Origin: Micromonospora sp. NBC_01796
Lineage (GTDB): Bacteria; Actinomycetota; Actinomycetes; Mycobacteriales; Micromonosporaceae
Length of the DNA stretch: 64,000 nt
Direction of reading: 5' to 3'
NCBI RefSeq assembly: GCF_035917455.1
Contig: NZ_CP109078.1
Span: 3,348,001-3,412,000 of the forward strand
Made by a program: the position numbers and the translations under genes. The notes under the pieces are model-generated. The model saw only the letters and a list, made by a program, of their open reading frames with translations. It searched no databases and was not told where the DNA came from. Positions 4,841-12,875 of the stretch are shown piece after piece. Position 1 is the first letter of the stretch. Each line of letters begins with the position of its first letter.

Positions 4841-6010
4841 TCAGACCGTACGGCGGGCCCAGGTCCAGGCGTAACCGGGATCCTCGACGCTCAGGCCGGG
4901 TTCGCAGAGGTCGAGCGGTCGGAAGGTGTCGACCATGACGGCGAGTTCGTCGAAGTGGTCGACGCCGATGGAGCGTTCCGCCGCGCCGGGCTGGGGGCCG
5001 TGGGTGAAACCGGCCGGGTGCAGCGAGATGGAGCCCTGTTCGATGCCGGAGCCGCGCCGGGCCTCGTAGTTCCCGCCGGTGTAGAACAGCATCTCGTCCG
5101 AGTCGGTGTTGTGGTGGTTGTACGGCACCGGGATCGCCAGCGGGTGGTAGTCCACCTTGCGCGGGACGAACGAGCAGATGACGAAGTTCGGGCCCTGGAA
5201 GGTCTGGTGCACCGGCGGTGGTTGGTGCACCCGGCCGGTTATCGGCTCGAAGTCGTGGATGGAGAAGGCCCACGGGTAGAGGTGCCCGTCCCAGCCGACC
5301 ACGTCGAACGGGTGGTTGGCGTAGACGTACCGGGTCCAGCCGCGCCGGTGCTGGACGTACACCTCGACGTCCTCCTCGTCGACCAGGAACGGGTCGGCGG
5401 GGCCGCGTACGTCGCGTTCGCAGTAGGGGGAGTGCTCCAGGAACTGGCCCCGGGCGGAGAGGTAACGCTTGGGTGGGCCGATGTGCCCGGTCGCCTCGAC
5501 GGTGAGCAGGCGCAGCGGCTCGGGGGCGACCGGCACGATCCGGTGGATCACCGAGGTCGGGATGATCACGTAGTCGCCGGCGGTCACCCCGAGCACACCG
5601 AAGGTCGACTCGATCCGGGCCGCACCGGACTCGACGTACAGGCACTCGTCGCCGATGGCGTTGCGGTAGAGCGGGGACGGCCGGTCGGCGACCACGTACG
5701 AGATGCGTACGTCGTCGTTGGCGAGCAGGTGCTGCCGACCCAGTACGGGGTCCGCCCCGCCCGCGTCGAGCTTGTGCGTACGCAGGTGGCGGGGCTTGAG
5801 CGGCAGGTTCGGCAGCCGGGACCAGGCGGGCGGGGTGAACTCCTCGGCGGCCACGATCGCGGTCGGCGGGTAACGGTGGTAGAGCAGCGACGAGTCGGAG
5901 GAGAAACCCTCCTGGCCCATCAGCTCCTCGGCGTACAGGCTGCCGTCGGGTTGGCGGAACTGGGTGTGGCGTTTACGGGGCAGCTCACCGACGCTGCGGT
6001 AGTAAGGCAC
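4841..6010 (-). CDS. hmgA: Homogentisate 1,2-dioxygenase
   Basis: This Fe(II) cupin enzyme opens the ring of homogentisate to maleylacetoacetate in tyrosine/phenylalanine breakdown. Conserved stretches are PFDVVGWDGHLYPWAF, the metal-binding run PVPYNHHNTDSDEMLFYTGG and SISLHPAGFTHGP. I place the start at GTG 6010 (MPYYRSVGEL, 389 aa) because GGAGG sits five bases upstream. The open frame continues to 6112, but that would overlap the divergent gene and lacks a ribosome site. It is divergent from the 6106 gene and fahA, with a palindrome between them. Confidence 0.95.
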   Translation of the reverse strand: MPYYRSVGELPRKRHTQFRQPDGSLYAEELMGQEGFSSDSSLLYHRYPPTAIVAAEEFTPPAWSRLPNLPLKPRHLRTHKLDAGGADPVLGRQHLLANDDVRISYVVADRPSPLYRNAIGDECLYVESGAARIESTFGVLGVTAGDYVIIPTSVIHRIVPVAPEPLRLLTVEATGHIGPPKRYLSARGQFLEHSPYCERDVRGPADPFLVDEEDVEVYVQHRRGWTRYVYANHPFDVVGWDGHLYPWAFSIHDFEPITGRVHQPPPVHQTFQGPNFVICSFVPRKVDYHPLAIPVPYNHHNTDSDEMLFYTGGNYEARRGSGIEQGSISLHPAGFTHGPQPGAAERSIGVDHFDELAVMVDTFRPLDLCEPGLSVEDPGYAWTWARRTV

Positions 6011-6048
6011 TTTGACCTCCGCATTTGTCCCATTCAGCGGCCGACCGT

Positions 6049-6063
6049 GTCCGATAATCGGAC
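6049..6063. promoter_or_regulatory. 15-bp palindromic operator candidate between hmgA and the fahA operon
   Basis: GTCCGATAATCGGAC is a perfect 7+1+7 palindrome, and a related half site TGTCCG follows at 6070-6075. It lies in the short divergent intergenic region, so a dimeric regulator here could control both homogentisate operons. The regulator is unknown; no regulator gene is adjacent. Confidence 0.55.
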
Positions 6064-6105
6064 GCTGTTGTCCGTTAGTCGTAGCGTCCCGTAAGTTCTC
6101 TGTTC

Positions 6106-6963
6106 GTGTCAACGCAGGTGCCCCGGCTCTTCGCCGGCCTGGTCGACGACGCGGCCGTCTTCCCGCCCGGCAGCGCGTCGCTGGACGACGCCGTCATCGC
6201 CCACCGGGCGCACCGGACCGCCTGGTACGCCGACCTCGTCGGCCCCCTGCTCGTCCCGGCCTCGGCACTCGTTCACCTGCCCGCCCTCCTGAGTCCGGAC
6301 GAGCGGATCGAGGTGGGCGTGATCACAGACGTGCCGATCCACCGCCTGTCCGGCCTGCTCGCGGCGGCCGACCCCCGGCTGGTCCCACGGCAACTCGAAG
6401 CGGCGGTCGCCAAGCGCGGCGAGGACCCGCTGCCCGGACTGACCGAACTCCTCGCACTCGGCACCAACCTGCCGACGATGGACCTCTACGCCGAGGTCCC
6501 GCTCACCTGGGGGCTGCTCGCCGCCCTGGACCGGATCGCGCGGGCACGGGCGGACGGCGTACGGATCGCGGCGAAGTTCCGAACCGGAGGGCTCGCCGCC
6601 GAACTCTTCCCCAGCCCGGTCGAACTGGCCGCCGTCATCCGCGCCTGCCGGGACCGGGACCTGCCGTTCAAGCTCACCGCCGGGCTGCACCACGCGCTGC
6701 GGCACACCGACCCGGAGACCGGCTTCACCCACCACGGTTTTGTCAACGTACTGGTCGCCACCCTGGCTGCGGCCGAGGACGCCGAGGTGGCCGAGATCGC
6801 CGAACTGCTCGCCAGCAGCGACCCGCTGCGCCTGGTCGAGCCGGCCCGGATCCGCCGCGACCGGTCCCGGCCGCTCTGGCGCGGCTTCGGCTCGTGCAGC
6901 ATCGACGAACCACTGACCGACCTGGCCCGACTCGGGCTGATGAACCAGGGGGAGACCGAGTGA
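6106..6963 (+). CDS. Conserved protein of unknown function in the homogentisate operon
   Basis: A 285-aa, apparently soluble protein with no signal peptide or membrane helix. I do not recognise a named family. Visible features are a near N-terminal LFAGLVDDAAVFPPG, regular alternation of strands and helices suggesting an alpha/beta barrel-like fold, AAKFRTGG about residues 150-157, and LPFKLTAGLHHALRH about 186-200 containing several histidines. The stop overlaps the fahA start (GTGA). The gene sits between hmgA and fahA where a maleylacetoacetate isomerase would be expected, but it resembles neither GST-type nor DinB/mycothiol-type isomerases. A role in this pathway is inferred from context only. 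Confidence 0.65.
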   Translation: MSTQVPRLFAGLVDDAAVFPPGSASLDDAVIAHRAHRTAWYADLVGPLLVPASALVHLPALLSPDERIEVGVITDVPIHRLSGLLAAADPRLVPRQLEAAVAKRGEDPLPGLTELLALGTNLPTMDLYAEVPLTWGLLAALDRIARARADGVRIAAKFRTGGLAAELFPSPVELAAVIRACRDRDLPFKLTAGLHHALRHTDPETGFTHHGFVNVLVATLAAAEDAEVAEIAELLASSDPLRLVEPARIRRDRSRPLWRGFGSCSIDEPLTDLARLGLMNQGETE

Positions 6964-8165
6964 GCTGGGTCGAGGGCGCGGCGGGTTCGCCGTACGACGT
7001 GCACAACCTGCCGTACGGCGTGTTCGTGCGCGGCGACGAGGGTGCGCGGCGGATCGGCGTACGGATCGGGGAATCCGTCCTCGACCTCGACGGCGCGGAG
7101 GCGGCCGGGCTGATCCTGGCCGGCGGTGCGCTGCGCGAGCCGTCACTCAACGGGTTCATGGCGCTCGGGCACGCCCAGTGGGGCACCGTCCGGCAGCGGA
7201 TCGTGGAACTGCTCACCGAGACCGGGCACCGGGCGGCGGTGGCGCCACTGCTGGTCCCGCTCGCCGAGGTGGCCATGGTGCTGCCGTTCGAGGTCGGTGA
7301 CTACGTCGACTTCTACTCCTCGGAGCAGCACGCGAGCAACGTGGGCCAGATCTTCCGTCCCGGTGAGCCGCCGCTGCTGCCGAACTGGAAACACCTGCCG
7401 ATCGGCTACCACGGGCGGGCCGGCACGGTGGTCGTCTCCGGTACGCCGATCGTCCGTCCCTGCGGGCAGCGCTCCACCCCGGACGGTCCGGTGTACGGAC
7501 CCTCGATCCGGCTCGACATCGAGGCCGAGGTCGGCTTTGTGGTGGGGCTGCCGTCCGCCCTCGGTGACCGGGTCCCGGTCGAGGACTTCGCCGAGTACGT
7601 CTTCGGGGTCGTACTGCTCAACGACTGGTCCGCCCGGGACCTGCAGAACTGGGAGTATCGCCCGCTCGGCCCGTTCCTGGGCAAGTCGTTCGCCACCTCG
7701 ATCTCGCCCTGGGTGGTGCCCCTGGACGCGCTGGCGCACGCCTGGGTGCCCGCGCCGGAGCAGGACCCGCCGGTTCTCGACTACCTGCGCGACGACCCGC
7801 ACCTCGGCCTCGACCTGCGTCTGGCCGTGGACTGGAACGGCAGTCGGGTGAGCGAGCCGCCGTTCGCCGGCATGTACTGGACCCCGGCCCAGCAGTTGGC
7901 CCACCTGACCGTCAACGGCGCCTCCGTACGCTCCGGCGACCTCTACGCCTCGGGCACGGTCTCGGGTGACCGGCGCGACCAGGTCGGGTCATTCCTGGAG
8001 CTGAGCTGGGGCGGCAGCGAGCTGTTGAAGCTGACCGACGGCACCACCCGTACCTTCCTCGAAGACGGCGACACCATCACCATCACCGCCACCGCACCTG
8101 GCCCGGACGGCCGCCCCCTCGCCCTGGGCGAGGTAACCGGCACCATCACCCCCGCCCGCCGGTAA
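6960..8165 (+). CDS. fahA: Fumarylacetoacetase
   Basis: This enzyme hydrolyses 4-fumarylacetoacetate to fumarate and acetoacetate, the last step of tyrosine breakdown. An N-terminal SH3-like domain is followed by the catalytic FAH fold. Active-site motifs are DFYSSEQHASNVGQIFRP (metal Asp and catalytic His), LDIEAEVGFVVG (two metal Glu) and LLNDWSARDLQNWEYRPLG (metal Asp). The 401-aa length is typical. The open frame runs far upstream, but GTG 6960 (MSWVEGAAGSPY) overlaps the previous stop and agrees with family N-termini. Confidence 0.95.
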   Translation: MSWVEGAAGSPYDVHNLPYGVFVRGDEGARRIGVRIGESVLDLDGAEAAGLILAGGALREPSLNGFMALGHAQWGTVRQRIVELLTETGHRAAVAPLLVPLAEVAMVLPFEVGDYVDFYSSEQHASNVGQIFRPGEPPLLPNWKHLPIGYHGRAGTVVVSGTPIVRPCGQRSTPDGPVYGPSIRLDIEAEVGFVVGLPSALGDRVPVEDFAEYVFGVVLLNDWSARDLQNWEYRPLGPFLGKSFATSISPWVVPLDALAHAWVPAPEQDPPVLDYLRDDPHLGLDLRLAVDWNGSRVSEPPFAGMYWTPAQQLAHLTVNGASVRSGDLYASGTVSGDRRDQVGSFLELSWGGSELLKLTDGTTRTFLEDGDTITITATAPGPDGRPLALGEVTGTITPARR

Positions 8166-8415: not shown

Positions 8416-8619
8416 ATGCAGATCGATCTCGCGCGCGCGGCGTGGCGTAAGAGCACCCGCTCGAACGACCAGGGCTGGTGTGTGGAGGTGGCCGACAACA
8501 TGGCCGACGTCGTGGGTGTCCGCGACTCCAAGGACGTCACCGGTCCGGTGCTGGCCTTCAGCCCGAACGACTGGTCCGCGTTCGTCGGCGCGGCACGATC
8601 CGGCGCCTTCGACGGCTGA
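8416..8619 (+). CDS. DUF397 domain protein (orphan copy)
   Basis: A 67-aa protein with the whole DUF397 pattern: ARAAWRKSTRSNDQGWCVEV, then VRDSKDVTGPVLAFSPNDWSAFV and a C-terminal GAFDG. DUF397 proteins usually pair with XRE-family regulators of the WhiJ type in Streptomyces development and are proposed to act as their antagonists. Here no XRE gene is next to it; the nearest is at 9758 with two further DUF397 genes. ATG 8416 is preceded by AAAGGGG. The open frame upstream to 8260 has no family similarity. Confidence 0.85.
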   Translation: MQIDLARAAWRKSTRSNDQGWCVEVADNMADVVGVRDSKDVTGPVLAFSPNDWSAFVGAARSGAFDG

Positions 8620-9757: not shown

Positions 9758-10630
9758 ATGCCGGAGTCCGTTGTCGGGTCGACCGTCCCACGTCGACAGC
9801 TCGGCCGGGAACTGCGTCGACTACGCGAACACGAGGCACGCATCCCGCAGGTGGATGCCGCCCGCGCGCTGGAGTGGTCGGTCACCAAGCTGTGGCGCCT
9901 CGAAGGCGGCGAACTGGCCGTACGCGCGCTCGACGTGAAGGCCATGTGCGAGCTGTACGGCGCCGACGAGCAGACCACCACCGCCCTCACCGCCATCGCC
10001 CCGCACACCAAGTCCAAGGGCTGGTGGCACGACTATTCCGAGATCCCGCCCTGGTTCGAGCTGTTCATCGGTCTCGAAGAGGCCGCGAGCAAGCTTCGCG
10101 AGTACCACACCGATCTCGTGTCCGGCGTCCTGCAAACCAGGGAGTACGCCACGGCGGTGTTCACGAGAAGCGTGCTGAAGCTGTCTTCCGAGGAGATCGA
10201 GCGGCGTGTTGCTGTGCGGATGAGCAGGGCTCGTCTGCTGACCCGACTCGACCCGCAAGCACCGGTCTTCGACGTGATGCTCGACGAAGCCGTCATTCGT
10301 CGGCCGGTCGGGAGCGGGGCGGTGATGGCGGGTCAGTTGCGCCGGCTGGCCGAGGCAAGTGAGCTGCCCAACGTATCCATCCGTTTGCTGCCGTTCAGCG
10401 CTGGTATACACGGTGCCACGATGGTTGGCGGATTCACCATCATGGACTTTCCGAAGCGCCACGAACCCACGACAATCTACGTGGAGGGCCTGACCGGCGC
10501 CCTCTACCTGGACAAGCCAGCCGAGGCCGCGCGGTACACCCTCGCCTTCGAGGACCTCACTGCGTCGGCGCTGGACGAGGCCGCATCGCGCGACGTGTTC
10601 GTGCGCACGGCGAGGGAGTATGAGTCGTGA
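9758..10630 (+). CDS. XRE-family regulator with DUF5753 domain (WhiJ-like)
   Basis: A 290-aa regulator. A helix-turn-helix of the XRE class occupies about residues 12-70 (RQLGRELRRLREHEARIPQV, then EWSVTKLWRLEGGE). The C-terminal ~190 residues match the DUF5753 pattern (YHTDLVSGVLQTREYATAVF, MLDEAVIRRPVG, VSIRLLPFSAGIH). Such proteins repress developmental or secondary-metabolism genes in streptomycetes together with DUF397 partners. ATG 9758 follows GGGGGGAG; the frame extends to 9692 but those residues are not family-like. The stop overlaps the start of the DUF397 gene. Confidence 0.9.
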   Translation: MPESVVGSTVPRRQLGRELRRLREHEARIPQVDAARALEWSVTKLWRLEGGELAVRALDVKAMCELYGADEQTTTALTAIAPHTKSKGWWHDYSEIPPWFELFIGLEEAASKLREYHTDLVSGVLQTREYATAVFTRSVLKLSSEEIERRVAVRMSRARLLTRLDPQAPVFDVMLDEAVIRRPVGSGAVMAGQLRRLAEASELPNVSIRLLPFSAGIHGATMVGGFTIMDFPKRHEPTTIYVEGLTGALYLDKPAEAARYTLAFEDLTASALDEAASRDVFVRTAREYES

Positions 10631-10827
10631 GCAATCTTTCAGGTGCCCGTTGGCGCAAGAGCAGTCGTTCAAACGACCAAGGTCAGTGTGTTGAGGTGGC
10701 GGACAACCTGGTGGGGGTTGTCGGGGTTCGTGACTCGAAGGACGTGGCTGGGCCGGTGCTGGTGGTGGAGCCGGCTGGTTGGGTGGCGTTCGTTGCCGGT
10801 ACGAAGTCCGGTGCGTTCAAGCGCTGA
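10627..10827 (+). CDS. DUF397 protein paired with the XRE regulator
   Basis: A 66-aa protein with the DUF397 signature (GARWRKSSRSNDQGQCVEVA, VVGVRDSKDVAGPVLVV, GWVAFVAGTKSGAFKR). The GTG start overlaps the regulator stop (GTGA), so the pair is co-translated. This is the typical regulator/antagonist arrangement. It is most similar to the next DUF397 gene, from which it differs at few positions, indicating a recent duplication. Confidence 0.9.
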   Translation: MSNLSGARWRKSSRSNDQGQCVEVADNLVGVVGVRDSKDVAGPVLVVEPAGWVAFVAGTKSGAFKR

Positions 10828-10839
10828 GGGTGGAAGTTC

Positions 10840-10904
10840 ATGATCCACGCGCGCTGAGCTGTTCTGCGGGTGGTCGTGAGAACAGCTCAGAGCGCAATGA
10901 TCAT
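10840..10904. repeat. DUF397-associated hairpin, copy 1
   Basis: CTGAGCTGTTCT pairs perfectly with AGAACAGCTCAG around a 13-nt loop, with further pairing of flanking GCGC and of ATGATC/GATCAT (10840-10845, 10899-10904). A near-identical element follows the next DUF397 gene. It could act as a terminator, operator or part of a duplicated cassette. Confidence 0.75.
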
Positions 10905-10967
10905 CGTTTGACTGCCGTATGCCGCGCCAACTGACATGTGCTTCGATGTCTCGGCAGGGAGTGAGTC

Positions 10968-11168
10968 GTGATCAATCTTTTGGATGCCCGTTGGCGCAAG
11001 AGCAGCCGCTCGAACAGCCAGGGCGATTGTGTTGAGGTGGCGGACAACCTCGTGGGCGTAGTGCGTGTGCGTGACTCAAAGGATGCGGCTGGACCGGTGC
11101 TGGTGGTAGGGCCAGCGGGTTGGGCGGCGTTCGTTGCCGGTGCGAAGTCCGGTGCCTTCCGGCGCTGA
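10968..11168 (+). CDS. DUF397 protein, tandem duplicate
   Basis: A 66-aa DUF397 protein (DARWRKSSRSNSQGDCVEVA, VVRVRDSKDAAGPVLVVGPA, GAKSGAFRR). GTG 10968 is preceded by CAGGGAG. The coding sequence and the hairpin after it both duplicate the preceding unit. No further XRE gene follows, so this copy either shares the 9758 regulator or acts elsewhere. Confidence 0.88.
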   Translation: MINLLDARWRKSSRSNSQGDCVEVADNLVGVVRVRDSKDAAGPVLVVGPAGWAAFVAGAKSGAFRR

Positions 11169-11180
11169 GGGTGGGTGACG

Positions 11181-11245
11181 ATGATCCACGCGCGCTGAGC
11201 TGTTCTGCGGGTGGTCATGAGAACAGCTCAGAGCGCAGTGATCAT
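11181..11245. repeat. DUF397-associated hairpin, copy 2
   Basis: It has the same 12-bp stem CTGAGCTGTTCT/AGAACAGCTCAG and the same outer ATGATC/GATCAT arms as copy 1, with only scattered substitutions. The remaining gap up to bluB (11246-11355) shows nothing supportable. Confidence 0.75.
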
Positions 11246-11355
11246 GCTTCGCAAGCCGGCACTTCCGCTTGACGGGTCAGTGGTTGGTGAGGCGCTGGTA
11301 GGGGATGTGTCCGGCCACTCGCTGGCGAGTCTGAGTAGGCGAGCCCGATCCAGAA

Positions 11356-11988
11356 TCAGACGGAGGGACGCCAGCGGTCCTGGTGGATCGCCGCCGACAG
11401 GGGACGGCGTTGACGCCAGCCGTGTCGTTCCAGGTCGGGGGTCTGCTCGAAGTGGGTCACCGGGCCGAGGCAGAGCCAGGCGACCGGGCGGATGGTGGCG
11501 GGGATGCCGAGCAGTTCCCGCAGGAACGGCTCCCGGTAGAACGACACCCAGCCGACCCCGAGCCGCTCGGCGCTGGCGGCCAGCCACAGGTTCTGGATCG
11601 CCAGGCAGACCGAGTAGAGGCCGGCGTCGGCGATCGCGTGCCGACCGAGCACGGCTGGTCCACCCCGCTCCGGGTCGTACGTGACGACGATCGACAGGGT
11701 CGACTCGCGTACGCCGTCGATTTTGATCCGGGCGAAGCGTTCGGCGGCTTCGCCGTCCAGAGTGGACGCGAAGGTGTCCCGCTCCCGCTCCACGTGCCGG
11801 TGGAACTCCTGCCGCAGGTCCGGATCCCGGACCAGGACGAAGTCCCAGGGCTGGGACAGCCCCACACTCGGCGCGGCGTGCGCCGCCGTCAGGACGCGGT
11901 GCAGCACCTCGTCCGGGATCGGGGCACCGGTGAACTGGGCGCGTACGTCCCGGCGACGGTGGATGACGTCGTAGAGATCGGTGTCCAA
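11356..11988 (-). CDS. bluB: 5,6-dimethylbenzimidazole synthase (BluB), nitroreductase fold
   Basis: BluB uses FMNH2 and oxygen to fragment the flavin into 5,6-dimethylbenzimidazole, the lower ligand of vitamin B12. The protein starts LYDVIHRRRDVRAQF and continues AAHAAPSVGLSQPWDFVLVR, both characteristic of BluB within the nitroreductase superfamily; the C-terminal half contains AIQNLWLAASAERLGVGWVSFY and PVAWLCLGP. I favour TTG 11988 (210 aa) with GGGAG six bases upstream; a GTG at 12018 in frame would begin inside the leader. A cobalamin riboswitch precedes it, which supports the assignment. Confidence 0.88.
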   Translation of the reverse strand: MDTDLYDVIHRRRDVRAQFTGAPIPDEVLHRVLTAAHAAPSVGLSQPWDFVLVRDPDLRQEFHRHVERERDTFASTLDGEAAERFARIKIDGVRESTLSIVVTYDPERGGPAVLGRHAIADAGLYSVCLAIQNLWLAASAERLGVGWVSFYREPFLRELLGIPATIRPVAWLCLGPVTHFEQTPDLERHGWRQRRPLSAAIHQDRWRPSV

Positions 11989-12035
11989 GGCAGGCTCCCG
12001 CTGCGCTCGCGCCCCCACAGAGGGGCTGGTGACAG

Positions 12036-12225
12036 CGAGGCCGGTCTTCGGACTTCCGGATCTGCGCTGGTCACCCGCCTTCCCAGCCCTGTTCGGGCCA
12101 GTGGCTGCGTCTCGTACGCGTGGGTGGCAGCTCCCCGGTCACCGCGGCGGGCCCGTGCCGGAATCACACCGGCTTCCCGATTCTCCCCGCTCGCGCGGGG
12201 CACCTCGCAACAGTTCGTGCCGGTC
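12036..12225 (-). promoter_or_regulatory. Cobalamin riboswitch upstream of bluB
   Basis: Read on the minus strand, the leader holds GGTGCCCCGCGCGAGCGGGG, then AGAATCGGGAAGCCGGTG with TGATTCCGGC, then CGGGCCCGCCGCGGTGA, and later GTCCGAAGACCGGC. Order and spacing match the conserved core of cobalamin aptamers. Downstream, CCCC/GGGG and GCGC/GCGC pairings lie close to the ribosome site, so B12 probably represses bluB translation. Boundaries are approximate. Confidence 0.88.
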
Positions 12226-12362
12226 CGAACCCTAGCGGGACCGGCTCCCGGATCCGAGTGCGGCGGGTTCGATCGTCACTCGGGTCACGTTCTCGTCGCC
12301 TTCCGCGAATGTTCGCGTTAATGGTCGGTCACCCCCCGTACGGTGGAGGTTCGGGAGGTGTG

Positions 12363-12875
12363 ATGGCGACGGTAGCGGTGACCCGGCTGGTGCAGGCGTC
12401 CGCCGAGGAGTTGTGGCGGGTCTTCACCGACCTGCCCGGCCGATCCGACTGGCTCTCCACGATCAGCGGGATCGAGGTGCTCACCCCCGGTCCGACGCGG
12501 GTCGGCACGGTCTGGCGGGAGAGTCATCACCTGCCGGACGGCACCGAGTTGCTGGAGGAGTTCCGGGTGGAGGAGTTCAGCCCACCGCACCGGCTCACCG
12601 TCAGCTCGTCCGGCGTAGGCGTCGACTACCGGACCGCGTACACGTTCACCCCGGTCCAGGGGCGACGTCGGCGGCGGCGCAGTGGCTGGACCGCGGTCAG
12701 CGTGGTGCAGGAGGGCGCGGTCACGGCACCGTACGCCCGGCTCCTCGCGCTGGTGTTCGGCGGACTCGCGGCCCGTACCGTCGAGGGTGCGCTGCGACGT
12801 GACCTTGCCGACCTGGCCGCCGTGGTCACCTCGACCAATCATGATCATCGCGGTGATCCGGCCGCTGCCGCCTGA
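12363..12875 (+). CDS. SRPBCC (START-like) domain protein
   Basis: A 170-aa protein. The N-terminus (VTRLVQASAEELWRVFTDLPGRSDWLS) is the classic first strand and helices of the SRPBCC ligand-binding fold, followed by LTPGPTRVGTVWRESHH and EEFSPPHRLTVSSSG. Such proteins bind hydrophobic ligands or act as polyketide cyclase-like proteins; the ligand here is unknown. ATG 12363 is preceded by GGGAGGTG. The C-terminal tail (after about residue 155) is low-complexity. It is followed 54 bp later by a membrane-anchored propeller protein. Confidence 0.8.
   Translation: MATVAVTRLVQASAEELWRVFTDLPGRSDWLSTISGIEVLTPGPTRVGTVWRESHHLPDGTELLEEFRVEEFSPPHRLTVSSSGVGVDYRTAYTFTPVQGRRRRRRSGWTAVSVVQEGAVTAPYARLLALVFGGLAARTVEGALRRDLADLAAVVTSTNHDHRGDPAAAA

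Follow-up and report, generated by a model that had tools for sequence, protein, structure and literature searches.

A cobalamin riboswitch upstream of bluB with the Shine-Dalgarno sequence in loop L13, and related leaders without the aptamer

The minus strand of the window, as we call the whole 64 kb stretch analysed, carries bluB (11356..11988, 210 aa from its TTG start) and, upstream of it at 12218..12022, what its match to Rfam family RF00174 identifies as a complete cobalamin riboswitch. It is highly probable that this element represses bluB translation when adenosylcobalamin is plentiful, through an L5-L13 kissing contact that hides the Shine-Dalgarno sequence (SD). With B12 bound, L5 (CCCG) would kiss L13 (CGGG) and so stabilise the short P13 hairpin; as L13 holds the SD GGGAG, the ribosome would be denied access to the TTG, six bases further on. 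In the absence of B12, P13 would be just a short stem with the SD open, and the outcome would be end-product repression of bluB translation. The aptamer, the identity of the gene, the SD within L13, the complementarity of L5 and L13, and the position of the start codon are all observed in the window. As a B12 switch on bluB the element is complete and probably working, and it is an ordinary one, another example of an established riboswitch class. The main surprise, and the part most worth follow-up, is the set of relatives whose bluB leaders carry no aptamer.

According to a gathering-threshold scan of the 64 kb, the only Rfam match in the window is RF00174 at 12218..12022 (minus strand), with 100.1 bits against a gathering score of 31.5 and E 7.8e-24; the match is full-length (model 1-189), not truncated, and directly 5' of the gene. 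An earlier sequence-only reading had placed a cobalamin riboswitch upstream of bluB, quoted four conserved aptamer blocks and proposed an Rfam search. All four blocks are found on the minus strand in the quoted order (among them GTCCGAAGACCGGC at 12053..12040), and the search yields the significant match just given. The span of that reading, 11356-12225, takes in the gene and the aptamer, with a -10-like TAGGGT (12234-12229) just outside. Read 5' to 3', the minus strand thus presents TAGGGT, the aptamer, a short hairpin, P13 with the SD, TTG, and bluB down to 11356. Within the aptamer, the P1 strands are GCGAGG (5' strand, 12203..12208) and CCTCGC (3' strand, 12035..12040), and L5 lies at 12148..12151, all on the minus strand.

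The gene is confirmed as bluB, which encodes 5,6-dimethylbenzimidazole synthase, the enzyme for the lower ligand of B12. The open reading frame 11356..12018 (minus strand) matches the NCBIfam BluB model TIGR02476 with 228.9 bits (curated cut-off 150), and its product matches the solved BluB structure 2isj (PDB; E 4e-56) as well as Pfam nitroreductase. In the alignment to 2isj, the motifs RRDVR and GWVS are conserved; they may contain the catalytic Asp32 and Ser167 of Sinorhizobium meliloti BluB, if the numbering is offset by three residues.

For the comparison of leaders, 43 of 101 genomes (the window's own and 100 relatives) gave a bluB match with E no higher than 1e-30. Of the 42 matches other than the window's, 29 (L009-L037) were scanned with Rfam, which reported a riboswitch upstream in 12 of the 29. 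A second set comprised the best 80 of 478 named bluB loci, a choice skewed to near relatives, and some genomes occur in both sets. Plasmid-borne bluB accounted for 118 records, all below 60% identity. Together, 109 loci and the window give 110 upstream regions, of which 66 contain the block GTCCGAAGACCGG and 44 lack it. Two of the 66 leaders were removed as identical, and L058, L068, and L099 because automatic delimitation failed, which leaves 61, the window included; alignment A1 contains 60, L054 being left out for its mis-set 5' end.

The structure evaluated on this alignment was taken from the window's Rfam alignment; P13, the platform hairpin, and the kissing pairs were manual additions. 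It pairs in 96.1% of cells across the 60 leaders, a count favoured by its having been fitted to the window. Changes on both sides occur in 16 of the 52 pairs against a shuffled mean of 7.4, with none of 500 shuffles reaching 16, and slid controls give 28-52% of cells paired and 3-9 pairs changed on both sides. The P1 3' strand is paired with its 5' partner in 100% of cells, and one P1 pair changes from A-U to G-C in two leaders. The four L5-L13 kissing pairs hold in 99.6% of cells, with a sole compensatory change, G-C to A-U, in the distant leader L028; L5 and L13 are nearly invariant, so it is this one change that the kissing contact rests on.

The P13-L13 hairpin, GCAG-CGGGAGC-CTGC (11990..12004, minus strand), pairs in 99.2% of cells, and its outer pair is changed on both sides in two leaders. 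The SD GGGAG (11999-11995) overlaps its loop, L13 being CGGGAGC (12000-11994), and the CGGG of L13 is complementary to the CCCG of L5 (12151-12148). When a 15-base piece lacking the first G of P13 is folded, the stem shifts to GCGG/CUGC (-3.8 kcal/mol), which leaves the exact register of P13 unsettled. Between P1 and P13 stands a variable hairpin, in the window GCCCC/GGGGC (12011..12026, minus strand). It is poorly aligned (76.9% of cells paired) and becomes clear when taken leader by leader: a perfect stem of at least 5 is present in 55 of 61 leaders against 39.5% of shuffles, and 44 different stems of 4 or more occur across the 61. Its absence in L086 indicates that it is dispensable. A further hairpin, 5' of P1, was discarded as too weak, with stems averaging 4.1 pairs against 3.1 in shuffled sequence and 31.6% of shuffles reaching 4.

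As for transcription, no sigma-70 consensus promoter was found, and the candidate box came from the comparison instead. A TANNNT box, chosen after looking at the leaders, precedes the GAGG/GGGG of P1 by 18-32 bases in all of 60 leaders, against 7 of 559 background stretches; in the window it is the -10-like TAGGGT (12229..12234, minus strand), from which transcription would start just upstream of P1.

The start of bluB is likely best placed at the TTG at 11988-11986 (minus strand), to which the sequence-only reading had pointed and with which the leaders agree. An in-frame start codon follows GGGAG at a spacing of 4-9 bases in all 61 leaders, six bases in the window, and the first start-type codon after GGGAG is ATG in 40, GTG in 11, TTG in 9, and CTG in 1. 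The CTG, at L044:1498-1500 of Micromonospora sp. C28SCA-DRY-2, occupies the bluB start place after P13 and is a possible CTG start. TTG is kept in all four members of the window's clade (the window, L009, L010, and L038; clade support 98). It is also the first codon clear of P13 and so has a place in the mechanism. The same counts lend no support to the further proposal that TTG makes initiation especially sensitive to the riboswitch: ATG is the usual start where this SD hairpin is present (40 of 61 leaders), so the switch needs no weak codon. That bluB instead begins at the upstream in-frame GTG 12018, inside the platform hairpin, with a protein ten residues longer, is very improbable, although the reading frame is open from there. 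In the long frame, the BluB profile is matched from residue 13 on, two residues after TTG; the stretch from P1 to the SD varies freely in length among the leaders (29, 29, 26, and 25 bases in the window, L009, L010, and L038, the step to L038 not being a multiple of three, though the step to L010 is); and the in-frame start after P13 is kept in 61 of 61. GTG 12018 was rejected on these three grounds, and the likely BluB start codon is now fixed for a large actinomycete genome.

The computed folds bear on the accessibility of the SD. When the native aptamer is enforced and the kissing contact left out, the SD of the window is 80% unpaired according to ViennaRNA, at a cost of 34.5 kcal/mol over the free optimum, and in the free ensemble it is 21% unpaired; the respective means over 60 leaders are 60% and 34%. 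Of these folds, only the constrained one speaks for the proposed model. Without constraints the aptamer fold is not obtained and the SD pairs with the P1 3' strand, which counts against the model, and the fold z-scores are weak (-1.56 and -0.33). Such energies include no tertiary contacts and leave the direction of the switch undecided; for that direction we rely on knowledge of the class (excerpts of PMC10653944, PMC11260477, and PMC2258182); the ligand and the switching itself we likewise infer from the class. According to an excerpt of PMC10653944, L5-L13 kissing controls access to the ribosome binding site in Escherichia coli btuB and env8. In Mycobacterium tuberculosis metE, mutants of L5 and of L13 raised expression and the double mutant came back near wild type (excerpt of PMC11260477).

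The alternative pairing is what an activating switch would use: without ligand the P1 3' strand (CUCGC) would sequester the SD (GCGGG), and B12 would draw that strand into P1 and free the SD. The CUCGC/GCGGG helix is part of the best fold computed from the platform by itself and could pair in 99.7% of cells across 60 leaders, and one activating corrinoid riboswitch, called the first, is described in an excerpt of PMC10653944. Yet two-sided changes are absent from all five pairs of the helix, P1 and L13 already account for the conservation of both strands, and activation of a B12 synthesis gene by B12 would make little metabolic sense; we therefore hold an activating switch to be improbable. 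Slightly less improbable, and still unlikely, is that the switch acts mainly on the transcript, by Rho-dependent termination or decay in the leader, with translation secondary. Indications of premature termination besides a translational platform are given for M. tuberculosis metE in an excerpt of PMC11260477. Against this stand the position of the SD inside the conserved L13 and the finding of no intrinsic terminator at 11900-12400, in a search confined to the intrinsic type. That finding makes control at translation the simpler reading, and repression by L5-L13 kissing remains the preferred one.

The sequence-only reading described bluB as a single isolated B12 gene. It is indeed solitary at its locus, yet the genome (8.56 Mb, one contig) has four further RF00174 matches over cut-off. 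In total at least 7 matches, at least 5 of them over cut-off, were obtained from the 150 of 712 first-look candidates that were scored, and more may exist. The four others (the further RF00174 loci of the genome are labelled G000:C1, L002-L007) precede genes resembling metE, cobN, the ribonucleotide reductase alpha subunit, and a putative cobaltochelatase, names that come from NCBIfam on 310-498 residues of each and hence lie below full-length cut-offs. Downstream of one sub-threshold match is a binding protein that scores 79.4 bits against BtuF (cut-off 234) and matches another substrate-binding model best; the other sub-threshold match precedes a short CbtB-like protein, named by eye. Thus bluB is physically alone and yet a member of a B12 regulon. 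CobT (PF02277) matches at two sites, G000:C1:4404332-4405522 and 5018202-5019131, and CobS at one; the second CobT site belongs to an open frame of 702 codons adjacent to CobS, possibly a fusion.

The divergent neighbour at 12363..12875 (plus strand) is polyketide-cyclase/START-like (PF10604, 55.7 bits) and not part of the switch; its product also matches weakly an Rv0910-type toxin model (43 bits, cut-off 100). Elsewhere in the window, a stretch of 297 bases is duplicated at 10621-10917 and 10962-11258, with 85% identity and a spacing of 341; both copies contain a 26-base inverted repeat. A third copy, matched over 112 bases, lies within a DUF397 gene (PF04149) at 8443-8554. The stretch 4841-8165 contains a weak homogentisate dioxygenase match (minus strand) and fumarylacetoacetase (plus strand), and between them lies an open reading frame, 6106-6963, with no Pfam match.

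Among the leaders without the core block, seven from Micromonospora and Salinispora were picked by eye as remnants (L069, L076, L052, L080, L083, L089, and L039). No Rfam match was obtained in the six that were scanned (L069, L076, L052, L080, L083, and L039). The remnants keep the promoter end and some also the P13/SD hairpin, with the aptamer absent. L069 has the promoter and GCACGATCATGCGAGGTGCCC, followed by the platform hairpin and P13; in Salinispora the start codon comes directly after the promoter and the P1 5' piece. None of 3508 background stretches reaches the 5'-piece score of L069, L080, L083, or L089; 1 does for L052, 5 for L039, and 2072 for L076, where an indel seems to shift the piece. 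For the P13 piece the corresponding counts of 3508 are 0 for L069, L045, and L081, 1 for L076, 5 for L042, and 2473 for L052; L042, L045, and L081 keep the SD hairpin motif and have no aptamer. The -10 box distance (-26) is kept in 5 of the 7 remnants, L076 and L052 having no TANNNT there. Remnants are not convincing in L072, L075, L063, L057, and L108, the best being reached by 43 of 3508. In L063 (Nonomuraea), a run of 15 bases ending four bases before the ATG is identical to part of the aptamer, although the 5'-piece score is unremarkable (359 of 3508). The clean background covered 15 of the 44 aptamer-free leaders; among the other 29, whose background contained real leaders, none stands out at the 1% level.

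A quick protein tree makes it likely, short of proof, that the aptamer was lost from the bluB leader more than once. It implies 13 changes of aptamer presence over 92 rows, although only 2 are forced by its starred branches; the fork uniting L069 and L076 with the aptamer-bearing L061 has a support of 94 and is not starred. Of the initial 110 rows, the tree omits 5 with identity below 60%, 5 duplicates, and 8 whose matched stretch contains a stop letter; L042 and L045, both with P13 remnants, belong to these 8. As for the manner of loss, a reasonably probable account is repeated excision of the aptamer alone, with the promoter and the P1 5' strand (GCGAGGTGCC or a near form) kept. The retained 5' piece would be joined to the platform hairpin and P13/SD, as in L069, or straight to the start codon, as in Salinispora, where GAGG, left over from P1, could act as a new SD. 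In L043, L044, L047, and L074, GGTGCCC occurs at the 5' edge of the aptamer and again in the platform hairpin, and recombination between these repeats would give an L069-like form. RF00174 is over cut-off in all 11 genomes searched, ten with aptamer-free loci (that of L063 not among them) and the control L061 (Micromonospora halophytica); because these genomes keep other cobalamin riboswitches, B12 control would be dropped for bluB in particular. Relatives that seem to lack only the aptamer would be natural deletion controls for the cost or gain of a bluB free of B12 control.

Among the open-licence papers listed, none is by title or abstract start on bluB riboswitches of Micromonosporaceae or on aptamer loss in these bacteria; the words 'loss of riboswitch' do occur in PMC5997356, on a yeast TPP riboswitch. 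Excerpts of PMC12713380, PMC9600662, PMC8192938, and PMC8123684 hold nothing on this bluB leader, and an excerpt of PMC4428469 treats Salinispora metH, with bluB absent.

In comparison with RF00174 in general, the window matches the model full-length and above the gathering score, its L5 is complementary to the platform loop, and no difference in the aptamer was found; the platform differs in being short, in having the SD inside L13, and in its extra variable hairpin. Cobalamin riboswitches also precede bluB in Sinorhizobium meliloti and Mesorhizobium loti and are listed as reporter constructs in an excerpt of PMC5948670; these bacteria belong to another phylum, and the likeness noted is one of gene setting. 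The M. tuberculosis metE riboswitch is, like that of the window, actinobacterial, with an L5-L13 kissing contact and an occluded initiation region. According to the same excerpt of PMC11260477, however, its anti-initiation strand and antagonist stand about 60 nt apart and L13 overlaps the antagonist, whereas L13 of the window itself holds the SD. As for E. coli btuB, L5-L13 kissing governs access to the ribosome site there too, although the contact stabilises P13, which in turn promotes a hairpin at the ribosome binding site (excerpt of PMC10653944). With its compact platform and the SD in the kissing loop, the bluB leader offers a clean case for testing direct sequestration.
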